From Deltaproteobacteria bacterium (GTDB lineage: Bacteria; Desulfobacterota; Desulfobacteria; Desulfobacterales; Desulfosalsimonadaceae), in the NCBI GenBank assembly GCA_013151835.1, contig JAADHK010000125.1:1-64000 (forward strand): 64,000 nucleotides of DNA, read 5' to 3'. The notes below the pieces were generated by a model, which was not told the origin of the DNA, searched no databases, and worked only from the letters and a program-made list of their open reading frames with translations. Made by a program: the position numbers and the translations under genes. How positions within the stretch are numbered: position 1 is the first letter of the stretch; each line of letters opens with the position of its first letter. Below, one piece after another: positions 53,108 to 63,596 of the stretch.

Positions 53108-53180
53108 ATGAAAAGGCTTTTTCATGGTGAAACATATTGCATCGGCTTTAAATAACCCGCCCGGATAGCGATAGCCGATG
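53108..53180 (+). promoter_or_regulatory. Two hairpins upstream of the DUF2141 gene
   Basis: ATGAAAA (53108-53114) pairs with TTTTCAT (53119-53125) around a four-base loop. CATCGGCT (53140-53147) pairs perfectly with AGCCGATG (53173-53180) around 25 bases. Both lie between the divergent waaA and DUF2141 genes, ending 57 bases before the latter's start. They may form a structured leader; no known riboswitch class was matched. Confidence 0.35.
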
Positions 53181-53237
53181 AGACCGGATTTTTCAGAAGA
53201 TGATTTCAGAATCGATTATCCGAAAACAGAGGTTTTG

Positions 53238-53675
53238 ATGCGTAAAATGATCATATTTTCAATATGGTGTTTGTTATTACTGTCCTCCGTTGCCCATGCC
53301 CGGTCCGGGAAGTACACCATTGCGGGACAGATTCATTTTGAAAAGACAGGGATGATCTATATAAAGATTGTTACCCGGACACAATTTGAGGATAAGGAAA
53401 AATCCCCTTTTCGGTTGACAATTCGGATCGACAAAAACGGCTTGAATACGAAAAAGGTTCCGTTTATGTTCCAAAATGTCCCCAAAGGGACCTATGGCAT
53501 TATGGTTTTTGAGGATACGAATGAAAACAAGAAATTTGATATGGGGATGTTTGGCCCCAAGGAGCCGTGGGGCATGTATCGTCCGGTTCGCCCGATGTTC
53601 AGAAAGCCCGGATTCGATGAATTTGCGTTTTCGTTGAAAAAAGATATCACTAATATCAACATTAAATTGAAATGA
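53238..53675 (+). CDS. Exported DUF2141-family protein
   Basis: 145 residues from the ATG at 53238 (AGAGG five bases upstream; the frame opens at 53178). A signal peptide (cut near SVAHA) precedes one beta-sandwich domain. It shows DUF2141 family features: FQNVPKGTYGIMVFEDTNENKKFDMGMFGPKEPWG, a calcium-loop-like stretch, and a C-terminal strand. Function is unknown; family members are secreted or periplasmic. It lies 108 bp before the cytochrome c gene in the same direction and may share its regulation. Confidence 0.8.
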   Translation: MRKMIIFSIWCLLLLSSVAHARSGKYTIAGQIHFEKTGMIYIKIVTRTQFEDKEKSPFRLTIRIDKNGLNTKKVPFMFQNVPKGTYGIMVFEDTNENKKFDMGMFGPKEPWGMYRPVRPMFRKPGFDEFAFSLKKDITNINIKLK

Positions 53676-53783: not shown

Positions 53784-54233
53784 ATGCCCTGTTGCAAAAA
53801 GAAATGGGGATTTATATTTTCGGTATGCCTGATTGTGGTGGCAACGTCTGTTATATTCATCATAAGTTATGCTGACACTGGTGATTGCGGAATTTGGTTA
53901 AACAATCGTCCCCCTGTCGATTTTCTTGATAATTATCATGATACCCATATGGAAAATCTTGACTGCCTGGACTGCCACCATAAATACCTTAATGGGAAAA
54001 ACGTACTTGACGAAGATGACCTTGAAGAGGGGAATCCGGATATCCTCTGCTCTTCCTGCCATAAGGATAATTCTAAACTGAATCTTCGCCGGGCTTTTCA
54101 CAAGCAATGCATCGGTTGTCATGACAAACTCAGCGCAAAAGGCGAAAGAAGAGGCCCCAGCCTTTGCGGAGAATGCCATTCACGGCATAAGGTTGAATCC
54201 GGCAGCCTGACCCATGGAGGTAAAAATGGTTAA
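53784..54233 (+). CDS. Tetraheme cytochrome c, membrane-anchored or exported
   Basis: 149 residues. Residues 10-30 form a hydrophobic signal or anchor helix. Four CxxCH heme-binding motifs follow at 61-65 (CLDCH), 89-93 (CSSCH), 109-113 (CIGCH) and 128-132 (CGECH), with several extra histidines (H52, H55, H66, H106, H135) available as distal ligands. The size and heme number match class III/TmcA-type cytochromes c3 of sulfate reducers. It should face the periplasm and exchange electrons with the membrane cytochrome b encoded two genes later. AGGAG precedes the ATG. Overlaps metV by 8 bases. Confidence 0.92.
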   Translation: MPCCKKKWGFIFSVCLIVVATSVIFIISYADTGDCGIWLNNRPPVDFLDNYHDTHMENLDCLDCHHKYLNGKNVLDEDDLEEGNPDILCSSCHKDNSKLNLRRAFHKQCIGCHDKLSAKGERRGPSLCGECHSRHKVESGSLTHGGKNG

Positions 54234-54888
54234 GGGAAAAAGAAAACCTGTTGAAGAAATATATTCCGTCATTTCAAAATATTCAAAAATATTGATAGTG
54301 GGATGCGGGGGATGTGTCTCCGTCTGCCTCGCCGGCGGTCAAAAAGAAGTATTCGAACTCATAGAAGACCTCAAAGCGTCCGGTGGAAGCGCCAAGCAAA
54401 TGGATAGCTACACTGTGGAGCGGCAGTGCAACATGACTTTTCTTGCAGAACTGGATGATATGGCAGACGCTTATGACTGCATTGTTTCCATGGCCTGTGG
54501 CGCCGGAGTTCAATATCTTGCGGAAAGGTTTGCAAATATACCGGTATTCCCCGCCATAAACACAATCGCCATAGGCGTGGACAGGGAAATAGGCGTCTAT
54601 GAAGAAAAATGCCGGGCTTGCGGCCAATGCGTCCTTTCATATACAGGGGGTATCTGCCCTGTGACAAAATGCGCAAAAGGCCTTTTTAATGGGCCTTGCG
54701 GAGGCACGAACAGCGGAATGTGCGAAATAAACAACCAGACACCCTGCGCCTGGCATGATATCTATACCCGGTTAAAAGACCAGGGGCGGCTTGATGATAT
54801 TTTAAAAATTCAGGCGCCCATGCAATGGCAAAATCAGGTTCAGAGAACCATTGTTCAGGATGCCTACGCAGAAAGGTATGCGAAATAA
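54226..54888 (+). CDS. metV: MetV: methylenetetrahydrofolate reductase C-terminal/zinc-iron-sulfur subunit (copy 1)
   Basis: 220 residues. N-terminal Rossmann-like part with GCGGCVSVC (C27, C30, C34). The C-terminal cysteine-rich part has CRACGQC, GICPVTKCAKG and NGPCGGTNSGMCEI, the MTHFR_C (MetV) pattern, which binds iron-sulfur clusters and, in acetogens, forms the electron-entry subunit of MetF. The ATG at 54226 follows GGAGG by four bases. It overlaps the tetraheme cytochrome gene, so the cytochrome is very likely co-expressed with MetF/MetV. Partner MetF lies at 56150, after a cytochrome b and an HdrC-like gene. A paralogue is at 62928-63596. Confidence 0.93.
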   Translation: MVKGKRKPVEEIYSVISKYSKILIVGCGGCVSVCLAGGQKEVFELIEDLKASGGSAKQMDSYTVERQCNMTFLAELDDMADAYDCIVSMACGAGVQYLAERFANIPVFPAINTIAIGVDREIGVYEEKCRACGQCVLSYTGGICPVTKCAKGLFNGPCGGTNSGMCEINNQTPCAWHDIYTRLKDQGRLDDILKIQAPMQWQNQVQRTIVQDAYAERYAK

Positions 54889-54946
54889 TAATTGAAATTT
54901 ATATGTTAATGTTTGCCCTAATGTATAACAGGTAAAAGCGATTCAT

Positions 54947-55636
54947 ATGCAAATCCTCAACTTTCTTACACCAGATATTCTCTATGACCTTGCAAGGGGT
55001 CCTTTTGTATGGGCTTCTTTTGTCGTGTTTATTGCAGGATGCTTAATCCGTACAATCCGTATCTTGTCCCTGACAAAAAAATGGGAGCCAACCTGGAATA
55101 TTCCTAAGCCCGACAAAAAAGACTTAAGTAAAATTAAAAAATGCCCGCTTGCGCGCATCAAATTGTCTGTTTTTGGTACGAGCCCTGTCACCATGGTTAT
55201 AAGTGTTGTTTTTCATTTATTGATATTTGTCATACCCTTATTCCTCCTTGGACACAATATCCTGCTTCAGGAGGAAACAGGCATTAGCCTCTTCTCTTTT
55301 TCACAGGGGGCGACAAACGTCCTGACACTGATTTTTCTTTTCTGCGCGCTGTTTTTCTTTTTAAGAAGAATATTACTGGCAAGGATGAGAGCTATATCCA
55401 CTTGTTATGACTATATAATTTTTTTTATCGCGATTGCTCCTTTCCTGACGGGGATACTGGCCTTTTACCAGCCATTTAATAATTATCAGACTATGATAAT
55501 TTTGCATATGCTGTCAGGTGAGCTTATGCTCATCGCAATCCCATTTACAAAAATTTTCCATATGGTCTTTTTTTTCATGGGAAGATTCATGTTGGTCGGT
55601 CAGCACACCCTTGGAAGAGGCACAAGAACCTGGTAA
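54947..55636 (+). CDS. NarI/DsrM-like membrane cytochrome b
   Basis: 229 residues with about five transmembrane helices (approximate centres 27, 97, 132, 163, 195). The pattern resembles the nitrate reductase gamma/HdrE/DsrM/TmcC family of diheme cytochromes b. Candidate heme ligands are His in VVFHLLIF, LHMLSGE and FHMVFFF plus one more, and a cytoplasmic loop (PKPDKKDLSKIKKCPL) follows helix 1. Such subunits move electrons between a cytoplasmic iron-sulfur protein and menaquinone or a periplasmic cytochrome c. Its place between metV and an HdrC-like gene points to methyl-THF oxidation. Confidence 0.88.
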   Translation: MQILNFLTPDILYDLARGPFVWASFVVFIAGCLIRTIRILSLTKKWEPTWNIPKPDKKDLSKIKKCPLARIKLSVFGTSPVTMVISVVFHLLIFVIPLFLLGHNILLQEETGISLFSFSQGATNVLTLIFLFCALFFFLRRILLARMRAISTCYDYIIFFIAIAPFLTGILAFYQPFNNYQTMIILHMLSGELMLIAIPFTKIFHMVFFFMGRFMLVGQHTLGRGTRTW

Positions 55637-55669
55637 AATATATTATAATGGAAGTGAGTCGTAGAGCTA

Positions 55670-56065
55670 ATGGAAAACTTAGAACTTGACACAACCCAGG
55701 TAAAAAAGATGCTTGGAAAGCATAAGGCTAAAATGAAGTTTTATCTTGGCATGTGCGCTCACTGCAGTCTATGTGCCGAGAGTTGTTTTCTTTTCAATTC
55801 GCATGACAACGATCCAAAATATATGCCTTCTTATAAATTTATCAATTCCCTGGGGACCCTTTACAAAAAAAAGGGAAGGATAAAGCAGGAAACGGTTGAG
55901 GAAATAAAAGCGAATATCTGGGAAAGATGCGCACTCTGCACAAGGTGCTATTGCCCCTTTGGCATCGACATCCCATCCATGATAGCCCTTGCAAGAAGTA
56001 TTATGAGGTCCCAAGGCGTTTATCCGCAATATGATGAAGAGAAAGCTCATCCTCTTGCTGAATAG
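55670..56065 (+). CDS. HdrC-like iron-sulfur protein
   Basis: 131 residues, soluble. Two cluster motifs: C29, C32, C35, C39 (CAHCSLCAESC) and C87, C90, C93, C95 (CALCTRCYCP). The first is regular; the second ends CxC rather than the usual CxxxC. The rest matches the HdrC/HdrD N-terminal ferredoxin fold. The CCG domain of HdrB/HdrD, which holds the disulfide-reducing site, is missing, so this is only an electron carrier. Likely wire from MetV to the membrane cytochrome b encoded just upstream. Confidence 0.88.
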   Translation: MENLELDTTQVKKMLGKHKAKMKFYLGMCAHCSLCAESCFLFNSHDNDPKYMPSYKFINSLGTLYKKKGRIKQETVEEIKANIWERCALCTRCYCPFGIDIPSMIALARSIMRSQGVYPQYDEEKAHPLAE

Positions 56066-56149
56066 CCATAAAAAAGGCAAAGGCCATTTGATTTTCCTGT
56101 TAATGAGTTTATGGTCGAATAAATAGATTAAAAGATAGGACAAGGAAAT

Positions 56150-57079
56150 ATGGAGATGAAATCCGGAAGCAATCTTGAAAAAATGCTAAGAGCAGGTCAT
56201 TTTGCATTCACAGGCGAACTTGGACCGCCAAGGGGTACGAATGTAGAAGCGGTAAGGGAAAAAGCCGCCTTTTTAAAGGGCAATGTGGATATGGTAAATA
56301 TCACAGACAACCAGACCGCCATGGTCCGGATGTCTAGTTGGGCCGCCGCGATTATAGCTATTGAAGAGGGCCTCGAACCCAACTACCAGATGGTCTGCAG
56401 GGATCGGAACCGCCTTGCCATGCAGGCCGATATCCTTGGCGCATATGCCCATGGCATGCGTAATATTCTTTGCCTTTCCGGAGACCACCAGCAATTTGGA
56501 GACCATCCCAATGCCAAAGGTGTTTACGACATTGATTCCATTCAGCTTATCGGCCTTGTAAAAAAAATGCGTGACGAAGGAAAATTCTTAGGCGGAGCCG
56601 AAATTGACACGCCTCCAAAATTTTTCATAGGCGGCGCGGCAAATCCTTTTGCCGAGCCTCTTGAGTGGCGTGTTTATCGTCTGGCAAAAAAAATCACTGC
56701 CGGCGTTGACTTTATTCAGACCCAGTGCATTTACAATATGGACATAATGAGGAAATGGGTTAAGCAAGCCAACGAAATGGGGTTGACCGACAAAGTTTTC
56801 ATCCTCGCGGGTGTCACACCCATGAAGAGCCTTGGTATGGCAAGATACATGAAGGCAAAGGTCCCCGGCATGGACGTGCCCGATGAAATAATCAAACGCC
56901 TCCAGGGGGTTGACAGAAAGAAACAGGCTGACGAGGGCATCAATATAGCATGTGAACAGATTGAAGAGTTCAAGGAAATGAAGGGGGTCGCCGGCGTTCA
57001 TCTCATGGCCATTGAATGGGAGCACAAAGTGCCGGAAATCGCCGAACGCGCCAAGGTGCTCCCGAGGCCGGAAGTGTAA
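56150..57079 (+). CDS. metF: Methylenetetrahydrofolate reductase, MetF (copy 1)
   Basis: 309-residue flavin TIM-barrel enzyme that interconverts methylene-THF and methyl-THF. Typical segments are GELGPPRGTNVEAV near the N terminus, VNITDNQTAMVRMSS, MVCRDRNRLAMQADILGA, NILCLSGDH and FIQTQCIYNMDIM. In the reductive acetyl-CoA pathway run backwards (acetate oxidation) it oxidises methyl-THF. It is the last gene of the cytochrome c-MetV-cytochrome b-HdrC-MetF run. The second copy (61990-62931) is clearly homologous but divergent. Confidence 0.95.
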   Translation: MEMKSGSNLEKMLRAGHFAFTGELGPPRGTNVEAVREKAAFLKGNVDMVNITDNQTAMVRMSSWAAAIIAIEEGLEPNYQMVCRDRNRLAMQADILGAYAHGMRNILCLSGDHQQFGDHPNAKGVYDIDSIQLIGLVKKMRDEGKFLGGAEIDTPPKFFIGGAANPFAEPLEWRVYRLAKKITAGVDFIQTQCIYNMDIMRKWVKQANEMGLTDKVFILAGVTPMKSLGMARYMKAKVPGMDVPDEIIKRLQGVDRKKQADEGINIACEQIEEFKEMKGVAGVHLMAIEWEHKVPEIAERAKVLPRPEV

Positions 57080-61989: not shown

Positions 61990-62931
61990 TCAATTTTCGG
62001 CCCCAATTTCTGGCCTTGGATACAAACCGGCCCGCTCCACAATGCCGGGAACTTTTTCCTCCCATTCAATGGCCATGATATGGAATCCTTTAACGCCCTC
62101 AACGGATTTTAACCGTTCAATGGTTTCAACACAGATATTGATGCCTTCTTCAGGCTGTTTTTCCTTGGGCGTGTCCGCCATCCGCTTTACAATATCATCC
62201 GGCACATCCATGCCGGGCACTCTATTTTTCATAAATTTTGCCATGCCCACGGATTTTAAGGGTGTGACACCCGCGAGGATATAAACCTTCTCATGGAGCC
62301 CGCGGTCACAGACCTGCTTCATCCATTCTTCAAACTTATCTACATTATAAATGCACTGGGTCTGGATGAACTCCGCGCCGGAAGCAATTTTTTTGGCAAG
62401 CCGGGGAACCCTTATTTCAAATGGATCCGCAAAGGGATTTGCGGCAGCCCCCACAAACATTTGGGGTGGCCGCTTAATGTCGGCACCCCCTAAGAATTTA
62501 CCTTCATCTCTCATTAAATGAACGGTCTGGAGCAATTGCATGGAATCCAGATCATGGACATTCTGTCCCTGGGGACAGTCCCCGAAACTTTGATGGTCGC
62601 CTGACAAACAGAGCATGTTAAATATATCAAACGATGCGGCACCGAGGATGTCGCTCTGTATCGCAATCCGGTTTCTGTCCCGGGTTACCATCTGGAGGAT
62701 CGGTTCCACGCCCATCAGCTTTAAATGGATGCAGGCGGCCAGGCTGGACATCCGGGTGACGGATGTCTGATTATCGGTAATATTGACTGCATCGACATAA
62801 TCTTTGATCATTTCCGCTTTTTTGGTCACGGCTTTCGGATCACTGCCGCGCGGTGGGCCGCATTCAGAAGTTACGGCAAGGTTCCCCGAAGAAAGAATTT
62901 TTTCAAGCTTACTGGGTGTCTTCACGCTCAT
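61990..62931 (-). CDS. metF: Methylenetetrahydrofolate reductase, MetF (copy 2)
   Basis: 313 residues with the same core as copy 1: SECGPPRGSDPKAV, NITDNQTSVTRMSS, MVTRDRNRIAIQSDILGA, NMLCLSGDH, FIQTQCIYN. It overlaps the metV stop by four bases (ATGA), so the pair is translationally coupled. With MvhD next to it, this set fits the soluble MetF-MetV-HdrABC-MvhD enzyme of acetogens and sulfate reducers. Confidence 0.95.
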   Translation of the reverse strand: MSVKTPSKLEKILSSGNLAVTSECGPPRGSDPKAVTKKAEMIKDYVDAVNITDNQTSVTRMSSLAACIHLKLMGVEPILQMVTRDRNRIAIQSDILGAASFDIFNMLCLSGDHQSFGDCPQGQNVHDLDSMQLLQTVHLMRDEGKFLGGADIKRPPQMFVGAAANPFADPFEIRVPRLAKKIASGAEFIQTQCIYNVDKFEEWMKQVCDRGLHEKVYILAGVTPLKSVGMAKFMKNRVPGMDVPDDIVKRMADTPKEKQPEEGINICVETIERLKSVEGVKGFHIMAIEWEEKVPGIVERAGLYPRPEIGAEN

Positions 62932-63596
62932 GACTGTACATCCTCCCTGACCACTTTTCGGGGGCCGCCGGCGCGGTCCGTGGACCAGTCCTTTATTGAA
63001 CAGATTTTCTCATAGTCTTCAAGTCTGTCTAATGCTTTGAGCCGATCGATAATCAGCTGCCATGCACAGTCGAGGTCCTTGTTTATTTCGCATTTGCCGT
63101 TTGATGATCCGCCGCAAGGGCCGTTTAATATCCGTTTGGCGCATCGGGAAACCGGGCAGATACCGCCGGTAATTGCCAGCATACAGTTTCCGCAGGCCTG
63201 GCACCGTTCCGTCCACAGACCTCGCTTTTCGGTAGCCCCCAGAAAACAGGTGTTCACACCGGGATAGATGGGGACGGAATGGTATTTTTCAGCCATAAAC
63301 TGGACACCCACGCCGCATGCCAGGGAAATAATAGCATCATACCGGTCAGCCACATCTCTTATTTCTTCAAGATATTCATGATCACATTGTCTTTCCAGCG
63401 TGATCTCATCAATACTGACTTCGGTTCCCTGGTTTAAAAAACACATCCGAAGGGTGGATGCCAGCACTTCGACTTCTTTTTTACCGCCAGCTTCACAGAC
63501 TGTAACACATTCATTGCATCCCAAAACAAGGATGTTTTTGCAATCCGTTACATAATCGATAATTTCTTCCACCGGTTTTTTGTCAGCAACAATCAT
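62928..63596 (-). CDS. metV: MetV (copy 2)
   Basis: 222 residues with cysteines at the same places as copy 1: C27, C30, C34 (GCNECVTVC) and the C-terminal CQACGNC, GICPVSRCAKR and NGPCGGSSNGKCEI. AAAGG lies about nine bases before the ATG. It passes electrons between MetF and the adjacent MvhD/HdrA module. Confidence 0.94.
   Translation of the reverse strand: MIVADKKPVEEIIDYVTDCKNILVLGCNECVTVCEAGGKKEVEVLASTLRMCFLNQGTEVSIDEITLERQCDHEYLEEIRDVADRYDAIISLACGVGVQFMAEKYHSVPIYPGVNTCFLGATEKRGLWTERCQACGNCMLAITGGICPVSRCAKRILNGPCGGSSNGKCEINKDLDCAWQLIIDRLKALDRLEDYEKICSIKDWSTDRAGGPRKVVREDVQS

Follow-up and report, generated by a model that had tools for sequence, protein, structure and literature searches.

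A membrane-linked methylenetetrahydrofolate reductase (MTHFR) was postulated in 1977 and is supported by a cytochrome b-deficient mutant of Sporomusa, and a 2021 review held that nothing in genome sequences placed the enzyme at the membrane (PMC8578096). In T. phaeum the MTHFR activity is membrane-associated, with no membrane subunit assigned to it (PMC6895022). Here we consider five neighbouring genes in a 64,000-nucleotide stretch of DNA from a deltaproteobacterium (the window, meaning the whole stretch analysed, on contig C120 of a 147-contig, 3.3 Mb genome). From their sequences we propose, with a probability of roughly 0.66 for the statement as a whole, that these genes encode a membrane-spanning methylene-tetrahydrofolate (methylene-THF) reductase linked to a periplasmic cytochrome c and working here probably in the oxidative direction; we refer to the gene set as the module.

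Two described enzymes share with the module the catalytic pair of MetV and MetF. The MetFV-HdrABC-MvhD complex of Moorella thermoacetica is soluble and carries the flavin protein HdrA together with MvhD, whereas the module has instead a membrane cytochrome b and a cytochrome c, and its MetV belongs to a separate lineage. In the MetVF-RnfC2 enzyme of Acetobacterium woodii, it is the NADH-binding RnfC2 that the membrane wire of the module would replace (PMC8578096).

The membrane components resemble those of other complexes. In sulfate reducers TmcABCD, the type II cytochrome c3 complex, serves transmembrane electron transfer and has a homologous tetrahaem cytochrome c3, di-haem cytochrome b and dicluster iron-sulfur (Fe-S) domain, but the module lacks the C-terminal region of TmcB, has a CxxCxxCxC second cluster motif, carries MetV and MetF at its cytoplasmic end, and scores below the TmcA, TmcB and TmcC cut-offs. 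In HmcABCDEF, HmcE and the N-terminus of HmcF are homologous, and one version of the module has homologues of HmcA, HmcB and HmcC as well; the differences are the missing CCG region of HmcF, the presence of MetVF, and a tie to carbon monoxide dehydrogenase/acetyl-CoA synthase (CODH/ACS) rather than to sulfate reduction. NarI of NarGHI is likewise a di-haem cytochrome b folded into five helices, with its ligands in matching positions, but it has a different cytoplasmic partner.

The five-gene cluster

The original prediction described five closely spaced genes on one strand, headed by a tetraheme cytochrome c, and this is what we find: all five open reading frames (ORFs) lie on the plus strand in the predicted order, at 53784-57079, and the first encodes a protein with four CxxCH motifs and a class III family match.

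53784-54233, plus strand: cytochrome c, periplasmic tetrahaem class III (cytochrome c3/TmcA-like), with a PF02085 match, four CxxCH motifs and an N-terminal signal or anchor segment
54226-54888 (longest ORF from 54214), plus strand: MetV of the module, Fe-S subunit of methylene-THF reductase, with a PF12225 match
54947-55636, plus strand: cytochrome b, an integral membrane di-haem protein and TmcC/HmcE paralogue, from profile matches, ligands and model
55670-56065, plus strand: dicluster Fe-S protein of 131 aa, the TmcB/HmcF N-terminal domain without the CCG region, from HmcF/TmcB profiles
56150-57079, plus strand: MetF, catalytic flavoprotein subunit of methylene-THF reductase, with a PF02219 match

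The cytochrome c and metV genes overlap by 8 bases, as predicted, if MetV starts at 54226, and by 20 bases if the longer ORF from 54214 is taken; the second ATG, at 54226, has a GGAGG-like site upstream and agrees with the N-termini of relatives. The remaining gaps are 58 bases between MetV and cytochrome b, 33 between cytochrome b and the Fe-S gene, and 84 between the Fe-S gene and MetF. No hdrA, hdrB or mvhD lies within 53.1-57.3 kb, these genes belonging to an adjoining minus-strand cluster, and the module cluster contains no ORF for an NADH-binding RnfC2. Immediately upstream of the module, a DUF2141 protein is encoded at 53178-53675.

A MetVF-type pair is thus present within one cluster, MetF matching PF02219 at 134.8 bits and MetV matching PF12225 at 124.2 bits. 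Residues E23 and D112 of MetF align with E18 and D107 of Thermus MTHFR, and we take them to be the catalytic Glu and the FAD-contacting Asp, respectively. A sequence search of solved structures returned no relative of MetV or of the Fe-S protein; for the cytochrome c the family match was cytochrome c3 (3cao).

The proposed membrane wire

The cytochrome c matches PF02085 at 44.9 bits and the TmcA model at 70.7 bits, below the cut-off of 114. Its CxxCH motifs lie at positions 61, 89, 109 and 128, and four further histidines (H52, H55, H66 and H106) are invariant among 24 relatives, consistent with bis-His ligation; residues 9-27 are hydrophobic (Kyte-Doolittle value 2.79). The DNA pattern of the haem motif, when scanned over the whole genome, proved unspecific.

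The best family matches of the cytochrome b are TmcC (155.7 bits, cut-off 240) and HmcE (142.3 bits, cut-off 275), both below cut-off, while true TmcC (341.7 bits) and true HmcE (322 bits) proteins are encoded elsewhere in the same genome. It had been called NarI-type, a label that holds for fold and ligand positions but not for family, given that the match to the NarI Pfam family is sub-threshold (17.7 bits, cut-off 22.9) and the protein is nearer to TmcC/HmcE. Five transmembrane helices are predicted, with an N-out/C-in topology, four His ligands in helices 2 and 5, and a positively charged loop 1-2 (10 K/R) on the cytoplasmic side. Histidines 90, 103, 187 and 205 are invariant in 57 relatives, and an alignment with NarI places the NarI haem ligands, H187 and H205, opposite the last two of these histidines. 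In an AlphaFold2 model (pLDDT 88) the top structural match was NarI (Z 11.2 over 164-168 residues, root-mean-square deviation 4.3-4.5). DsrM was absent among the structural matches, an absence that carries no evidential weight.

The Fe-S protein matches HmcF at 112.5 bits and TmcB at 98.8 bits (TmcB cut-off 735), and does so only over the N-terminal first third of those proteins; the C-terminal CCG region is missing (full-length TmcB has ~430 aa). The CCG part of TmcB/HmcF is thought to serve DsrC. Eight cysteines are invariant across relatives, and the second motif reads CxxCxxCxC, against CxxCxxCxxxC in 30/30 long TmcB/HmcF-type ORFs, some loci being counted more than once on the module side. 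With Foldseek by itself the model (pLDDT 86.7) had no significant match; re-alignment matched it to SdhB/FrdB (Z 8.5) and to the HdrC structure 7bkb_C (Z 6.2). In complex II the dicluster domain of SdhB/FrdB forms the contact with the membrane cytochrome. The earlier description of this gene as HdrC-like needs correction: by family it corresponds to the dicluster region at the N-terminus of HmcF/TmcB.

In one genome (G100) the cytochrome b and the Fe-S protein are naturally fused into one 365-aa ORF beside metV (locus L228, 2393-3490, minus strand), which supports direct contact between those two parts.

Conservation and lineage of the module

Conservation of the gene set had been proposed as a check, and we find the set conserved, in permuted orders, in samples of the order, the class and the phylum. 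In the order, cytochromes b closely related to the one in the window (identity mostly 40-56%) are encoded beside a short Fe-S gene in ~26 of 146 genomes; these relatives score above most Tmc/Hmc homologues, and nearly all adjoin a four-haem cytochrome c and MetV, often with MetF. In the class, the Fe-S profile gave 65 matches at or above ~158 bits in ~62 of 291 genomes, nearly all in frames of 102-215 codons, and the next matches, at 151 bits or less, were mostly TmcB/HmcF in frames of ~430-550 codons. In the phylum the set occurs in ~30 of 345 genomes. Gene content was read at 27 module loci from this sample (L197-L223); MetV is present at 26, and the remaining one is cut by a contig end.

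We also examined 80 named loci holding the best cytochrome b relatives, which were chosen by cytochrome b similarity and not by MetV. Nearby genes include the Fe-S gene at 78, MetV at 74, a multihaem cytochrome c at 67 and MetF at 52, so that cytochrome b and the HdrC-like gene, far from never travelling with metF/metV, are accompanied by metV almost throughout. As controls, 0 of 20 genuine Tmc/Hmc loci carry metV or metF, and these have a 440-490-aa partner wherever one was found. Gene orders vary among the module loci (c-V-b-FeS-F, F-b-FeS-c-V, b-FeS-V-F-HmcA), and conservation in permuted orders rules out chance adjacency of the five genes. An assembly artefact is ruled out by the same set in the complete genome of Desulfoluna limicola (L055).

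At six loci (L043, L045, L052, L078, L097, L107) the module takes an Hmc-type form, in which a 16-17-haem HmcA-like cytochrome stands beside metV/metF, and HmcB and the NrfD-like HmcC follow after metF where the contig extends and was read.

In a tree of 72 MetV sequences, those of modules (42) and those of HdrABC-MvhD clusters (30) are parted by a single branch (SH-aLRT 100); this and the following trees came from quick searches without bootstraps and are unrooted. Module MetF groups apart from HdrABC MetF (SH-aLRT 90), the module Fe-S protein parts from TmcB/HmcF (SH-aLRT 98), and the module cytochrome b parts from TmcC/HmcE except for one row, L104, which adjoins acsC and acsE. Separately, ORFs of ~670 aa joining an MTHFR domain to a MetV C-terminal domain occur in L090 (1465-3477, minus strand) and L093 (1705-3729, minus strand).

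Association with CODH/ACS

Genes of CODH/ACS type lie within 7 kb at 17 of the 80 module loci and at 0 of the 20 Tmc/Hmc controls, the controls being shorter stretches. A frequent order is acsA-acsB-acsC-acsE-(metF)-cytb-FeS-cytc-metV, and in several lineages, many without DsrA, the module lies inside the acsABCE operon. Among 22 sampled module genomes, CdhC is present in 21 and DsrA above cut-off in 12, some gene absences possibly stemming from incomplete metagenome-assembled genomes (MAGs). Given these counts and the adjacency of the CODH/ACS genes, the module follows the Wood-Ljungdahl pathway rather than sulfate reduction. Within the order, 25 of 26 module genomes and 88 of 120 others have CODH/ACS (p 0.006, with phylogeny ignored), a modest association because most genomes there have CODH/ACS.

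Coexisting systems in the same genome

The window's genome encodes CODH/ACS, DsrA, QrcD (683 bits) and true Tmc and Hmc. It also holds further MetV and MetF genes, two of them within the window.

61990-62931, minus strand: MetF2, at the end of the adjoining HdrABC-type cluster and not part of the module
62928-63596, minus strand: MetV2, which falls in the HdrABC clade of the MetV tree

The adjoining minus-strand cluster, MetF-HdrC-HdrB-HdrA-MvhD-MetV-MetF, is complete from 61990 to contig position 69759 (L035), and a third MetV set, on contig C140 (L227, 111-8115), comprises HdrB, a 1499-aa HdrA, MetV, MvhD and MetF. With two HdrA-type MetVF clusters besides the module, two or more electron routes would be open to this reaction within one cell. 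The original prediction framed the module as an electron exit for sulfate reducers, and this is too narrow: such clusters coexist with it, and ten of the 22 module genomes show no DsrA.

Seven further module genomes with DsrA have QrcD above cut-off. The search for a NiFe hydrogenase in the window's genome, which did not extend to FeFe hydrogenases or periplasmic formate dehydrogenases, returned a 41-bit fragment only; several relatives with the module encode full-length NiFe hydrogenases.

Proposed mechanism and alternatives

In the mechanism that we propose, MetF would use its flavin to act on methyl-THF and methylene-THF on the cytoplasmic side. MetV, together with the dicluster protein that lacks the CCG region, would pass electrons to the di-haem cytochrome b, which would connect to the periplasmic tetrahaem cytochrome c. 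The membrane half would derive from a Tmc/Hmc-type complex, with MetVF in place of the CCG/DsrC-facing part of TmcB/HmcF. The core of the original prediction, a MetVF attached to the membrane by an HdrC-like wire and a cytochrome b, stands on the conservation of the set, the MetV lineage, the gene fusion and the CODH/ACS operons, and on this genomic evidence we hold the wiring of MetVF to the membrane to be likely; the physical assembly into one complex, the electron path and its direction we infer.

In this organism electrons would run from methyl-THF through the cytochrome b to the periplasmic cytochrome c, Qrc and menaquinone. The oxidative direction is expected here because DsrA, CODH/ACS and Qrc are present and no typical NiFe hydrogenase was found; we put its odds at even or slightly better. 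Where relatives do not reduce sulfate, electrons could pass through the wire in either direction: energy would be conserved if periplasmic donors reduced methylene-THF, and the membrane potential would help to drive methyl-THF electrons outward. With potentials from the cited papers (PMC8578096 for menaquinone), transfer from methyl-THF is downhill by ~126 mV to menaquinone and uphill by 120 mV to NAD+, an assumed membrane potential of 150 mV corresponds to ~29 kJ per two charges, and reduction of methylene-THF by H2 yields ~-41 kJ per 2 e- under standard conditions.

Several observations weigh against this reading. MetF lies outside the fetched stretch at 28 of the 80 loci, some of them cut by contig ends, and about a dozen of the 80 have no nearby cytochrome c. 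At L231 (964-4687) and L104 (4255-7663) acs genes adjoin a cytochrome b without metV, the cytochrome b following directly after acsC-acsE and L231 also having the Fe-S gene. Four module genomes with DsrA have no QrcD above cut-off, so that Qrc cannot be the general exit. That MetV docks on the Fe-S protein we infer from gene order only. Finally, methyl-THF and cytochrome c3 both lie at ~-200 mV, and standard potentials do not fix the direction (PMC8578096).

The loci without a cytochrome c would suit an enzyme in which the cytochrome b itself exchanges electrons between MetVF and menaquinone, with the cytochrome c as a secondary branch, a possibility that we entertain tentatively. It would fit the closest solved fold, NarI being a quinol-oxidising subunit, the downhill step to menaquinone, the NrfD-like HmcC added in the Hmc-type module, and the reduction of the quinone analogue AQDS (anthraquinone-2,6-disulfonate) by the T. 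phaeum MTHFR (PMC6895022), but a pure quinone enzyme would not need the multihaem cytochrome c found at most loci. We likewise doubt, without dismissing it, a reductive and energy-conserving direction, in which periplasmic electrons (from hydrogen, formate or extracellular donors via cytochrome c) reduce methylene-THF in autotrophy or acetogenesis. The module does occur inside acsABCE in CODH/ACS genomes without DsrA, full-length NiFe hydrogenases are encoded by several relatives, the reaction with H2 is favourable, and the Sporomusa cytochrome b mutant (cited in PMC8578096) points the same way; against this, direction is not readable from sequence, and the window's genome, with Qrc and without a typical NiFe hydrogenase, favours oxidation here.

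An ordinary Tmc or Hmc cluster is ruled out by the missing CCG region, the profile scores, the neighbourhood controls and the absence of DsrA from ten of 22 module genomes. The cytochrome b, Fe-S protein and cytochrome c are nevertheless all Tmc/Hmc homologues, and they could be a paralogue serving DsrC or another sulfur carrier with MetV and MetF as soluble bystanders; to the same evidence must be added the separate true TmcC and HmcE in this genome and the module's own MetV lineage, and we regard this as very improbable. No more credible is the idea that the Fe-S protein is an exchangeable HdrC for a soluble HdrAB, making the module MetVF a bifurcating enzyme of the HdrABC type. The same genome does have HdrABC-MvhD-MetVF clusters, the HdrC structure was matched, and Hdr genes follow the module in L049, L065 and L083, but the best family matches are HmcF/TmcB and not HdrC, one genome has the Fe-S protein and cytochrome b in a single ORF, and the window's module contains no Hdr gene.

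Relation to earlier work and implications

The passages found in papers on D. autotrophicum, seep-SRB (seep sulfate-reducing bacteria), Desulfococcus multivorans and Desulfobacteraceae mention Tmc, or HdrABC next to metF, and not the module; D. autotrophicum is reported to have two TmcBCA clusters, either of which might be this module. We found no description of it in open-access full texts, and a subscription journal, preprint, figure or supplement could hold one. As far as we have found in the open-access literature, the link proposed since 1977 has apparently never been assigned to genes.

The way in which methylene-THF reductase connects to energy conservation has been debated since that time, and the module offers a concrete candidate for this connection in many anaerobes. 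Cultured carriers, among them Desulfoluna spongiiphila, Desulfosarcina cetonica and Desulfocicer vacuolatum, make the idea testable. For acetate-oxidising sulfate reducers the module offers a path by which methyl-THF electrons could reach the periplasm and Qrc, and it might thus supply Qrc with electrons in species that lack periplasmic hydrogenases. In syntrophic or acetogenic relatives it could use or build membrane potential. The odds seem to us level that these loci form a reversible transmembrane methylene-THF reductase family, with four-haem Tmc-type and sixteen-haem Hmc-type members, which couples the methyl branch of the Wood-Ljungdahl pathway directly to the membrane potential and occurs in about one in ten of the genomes sampled from the phylum, as well as in a Spirochaetes MAG. 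If true, such a family would explain in physical terms how energy is coupled at the MTHFR reaction.

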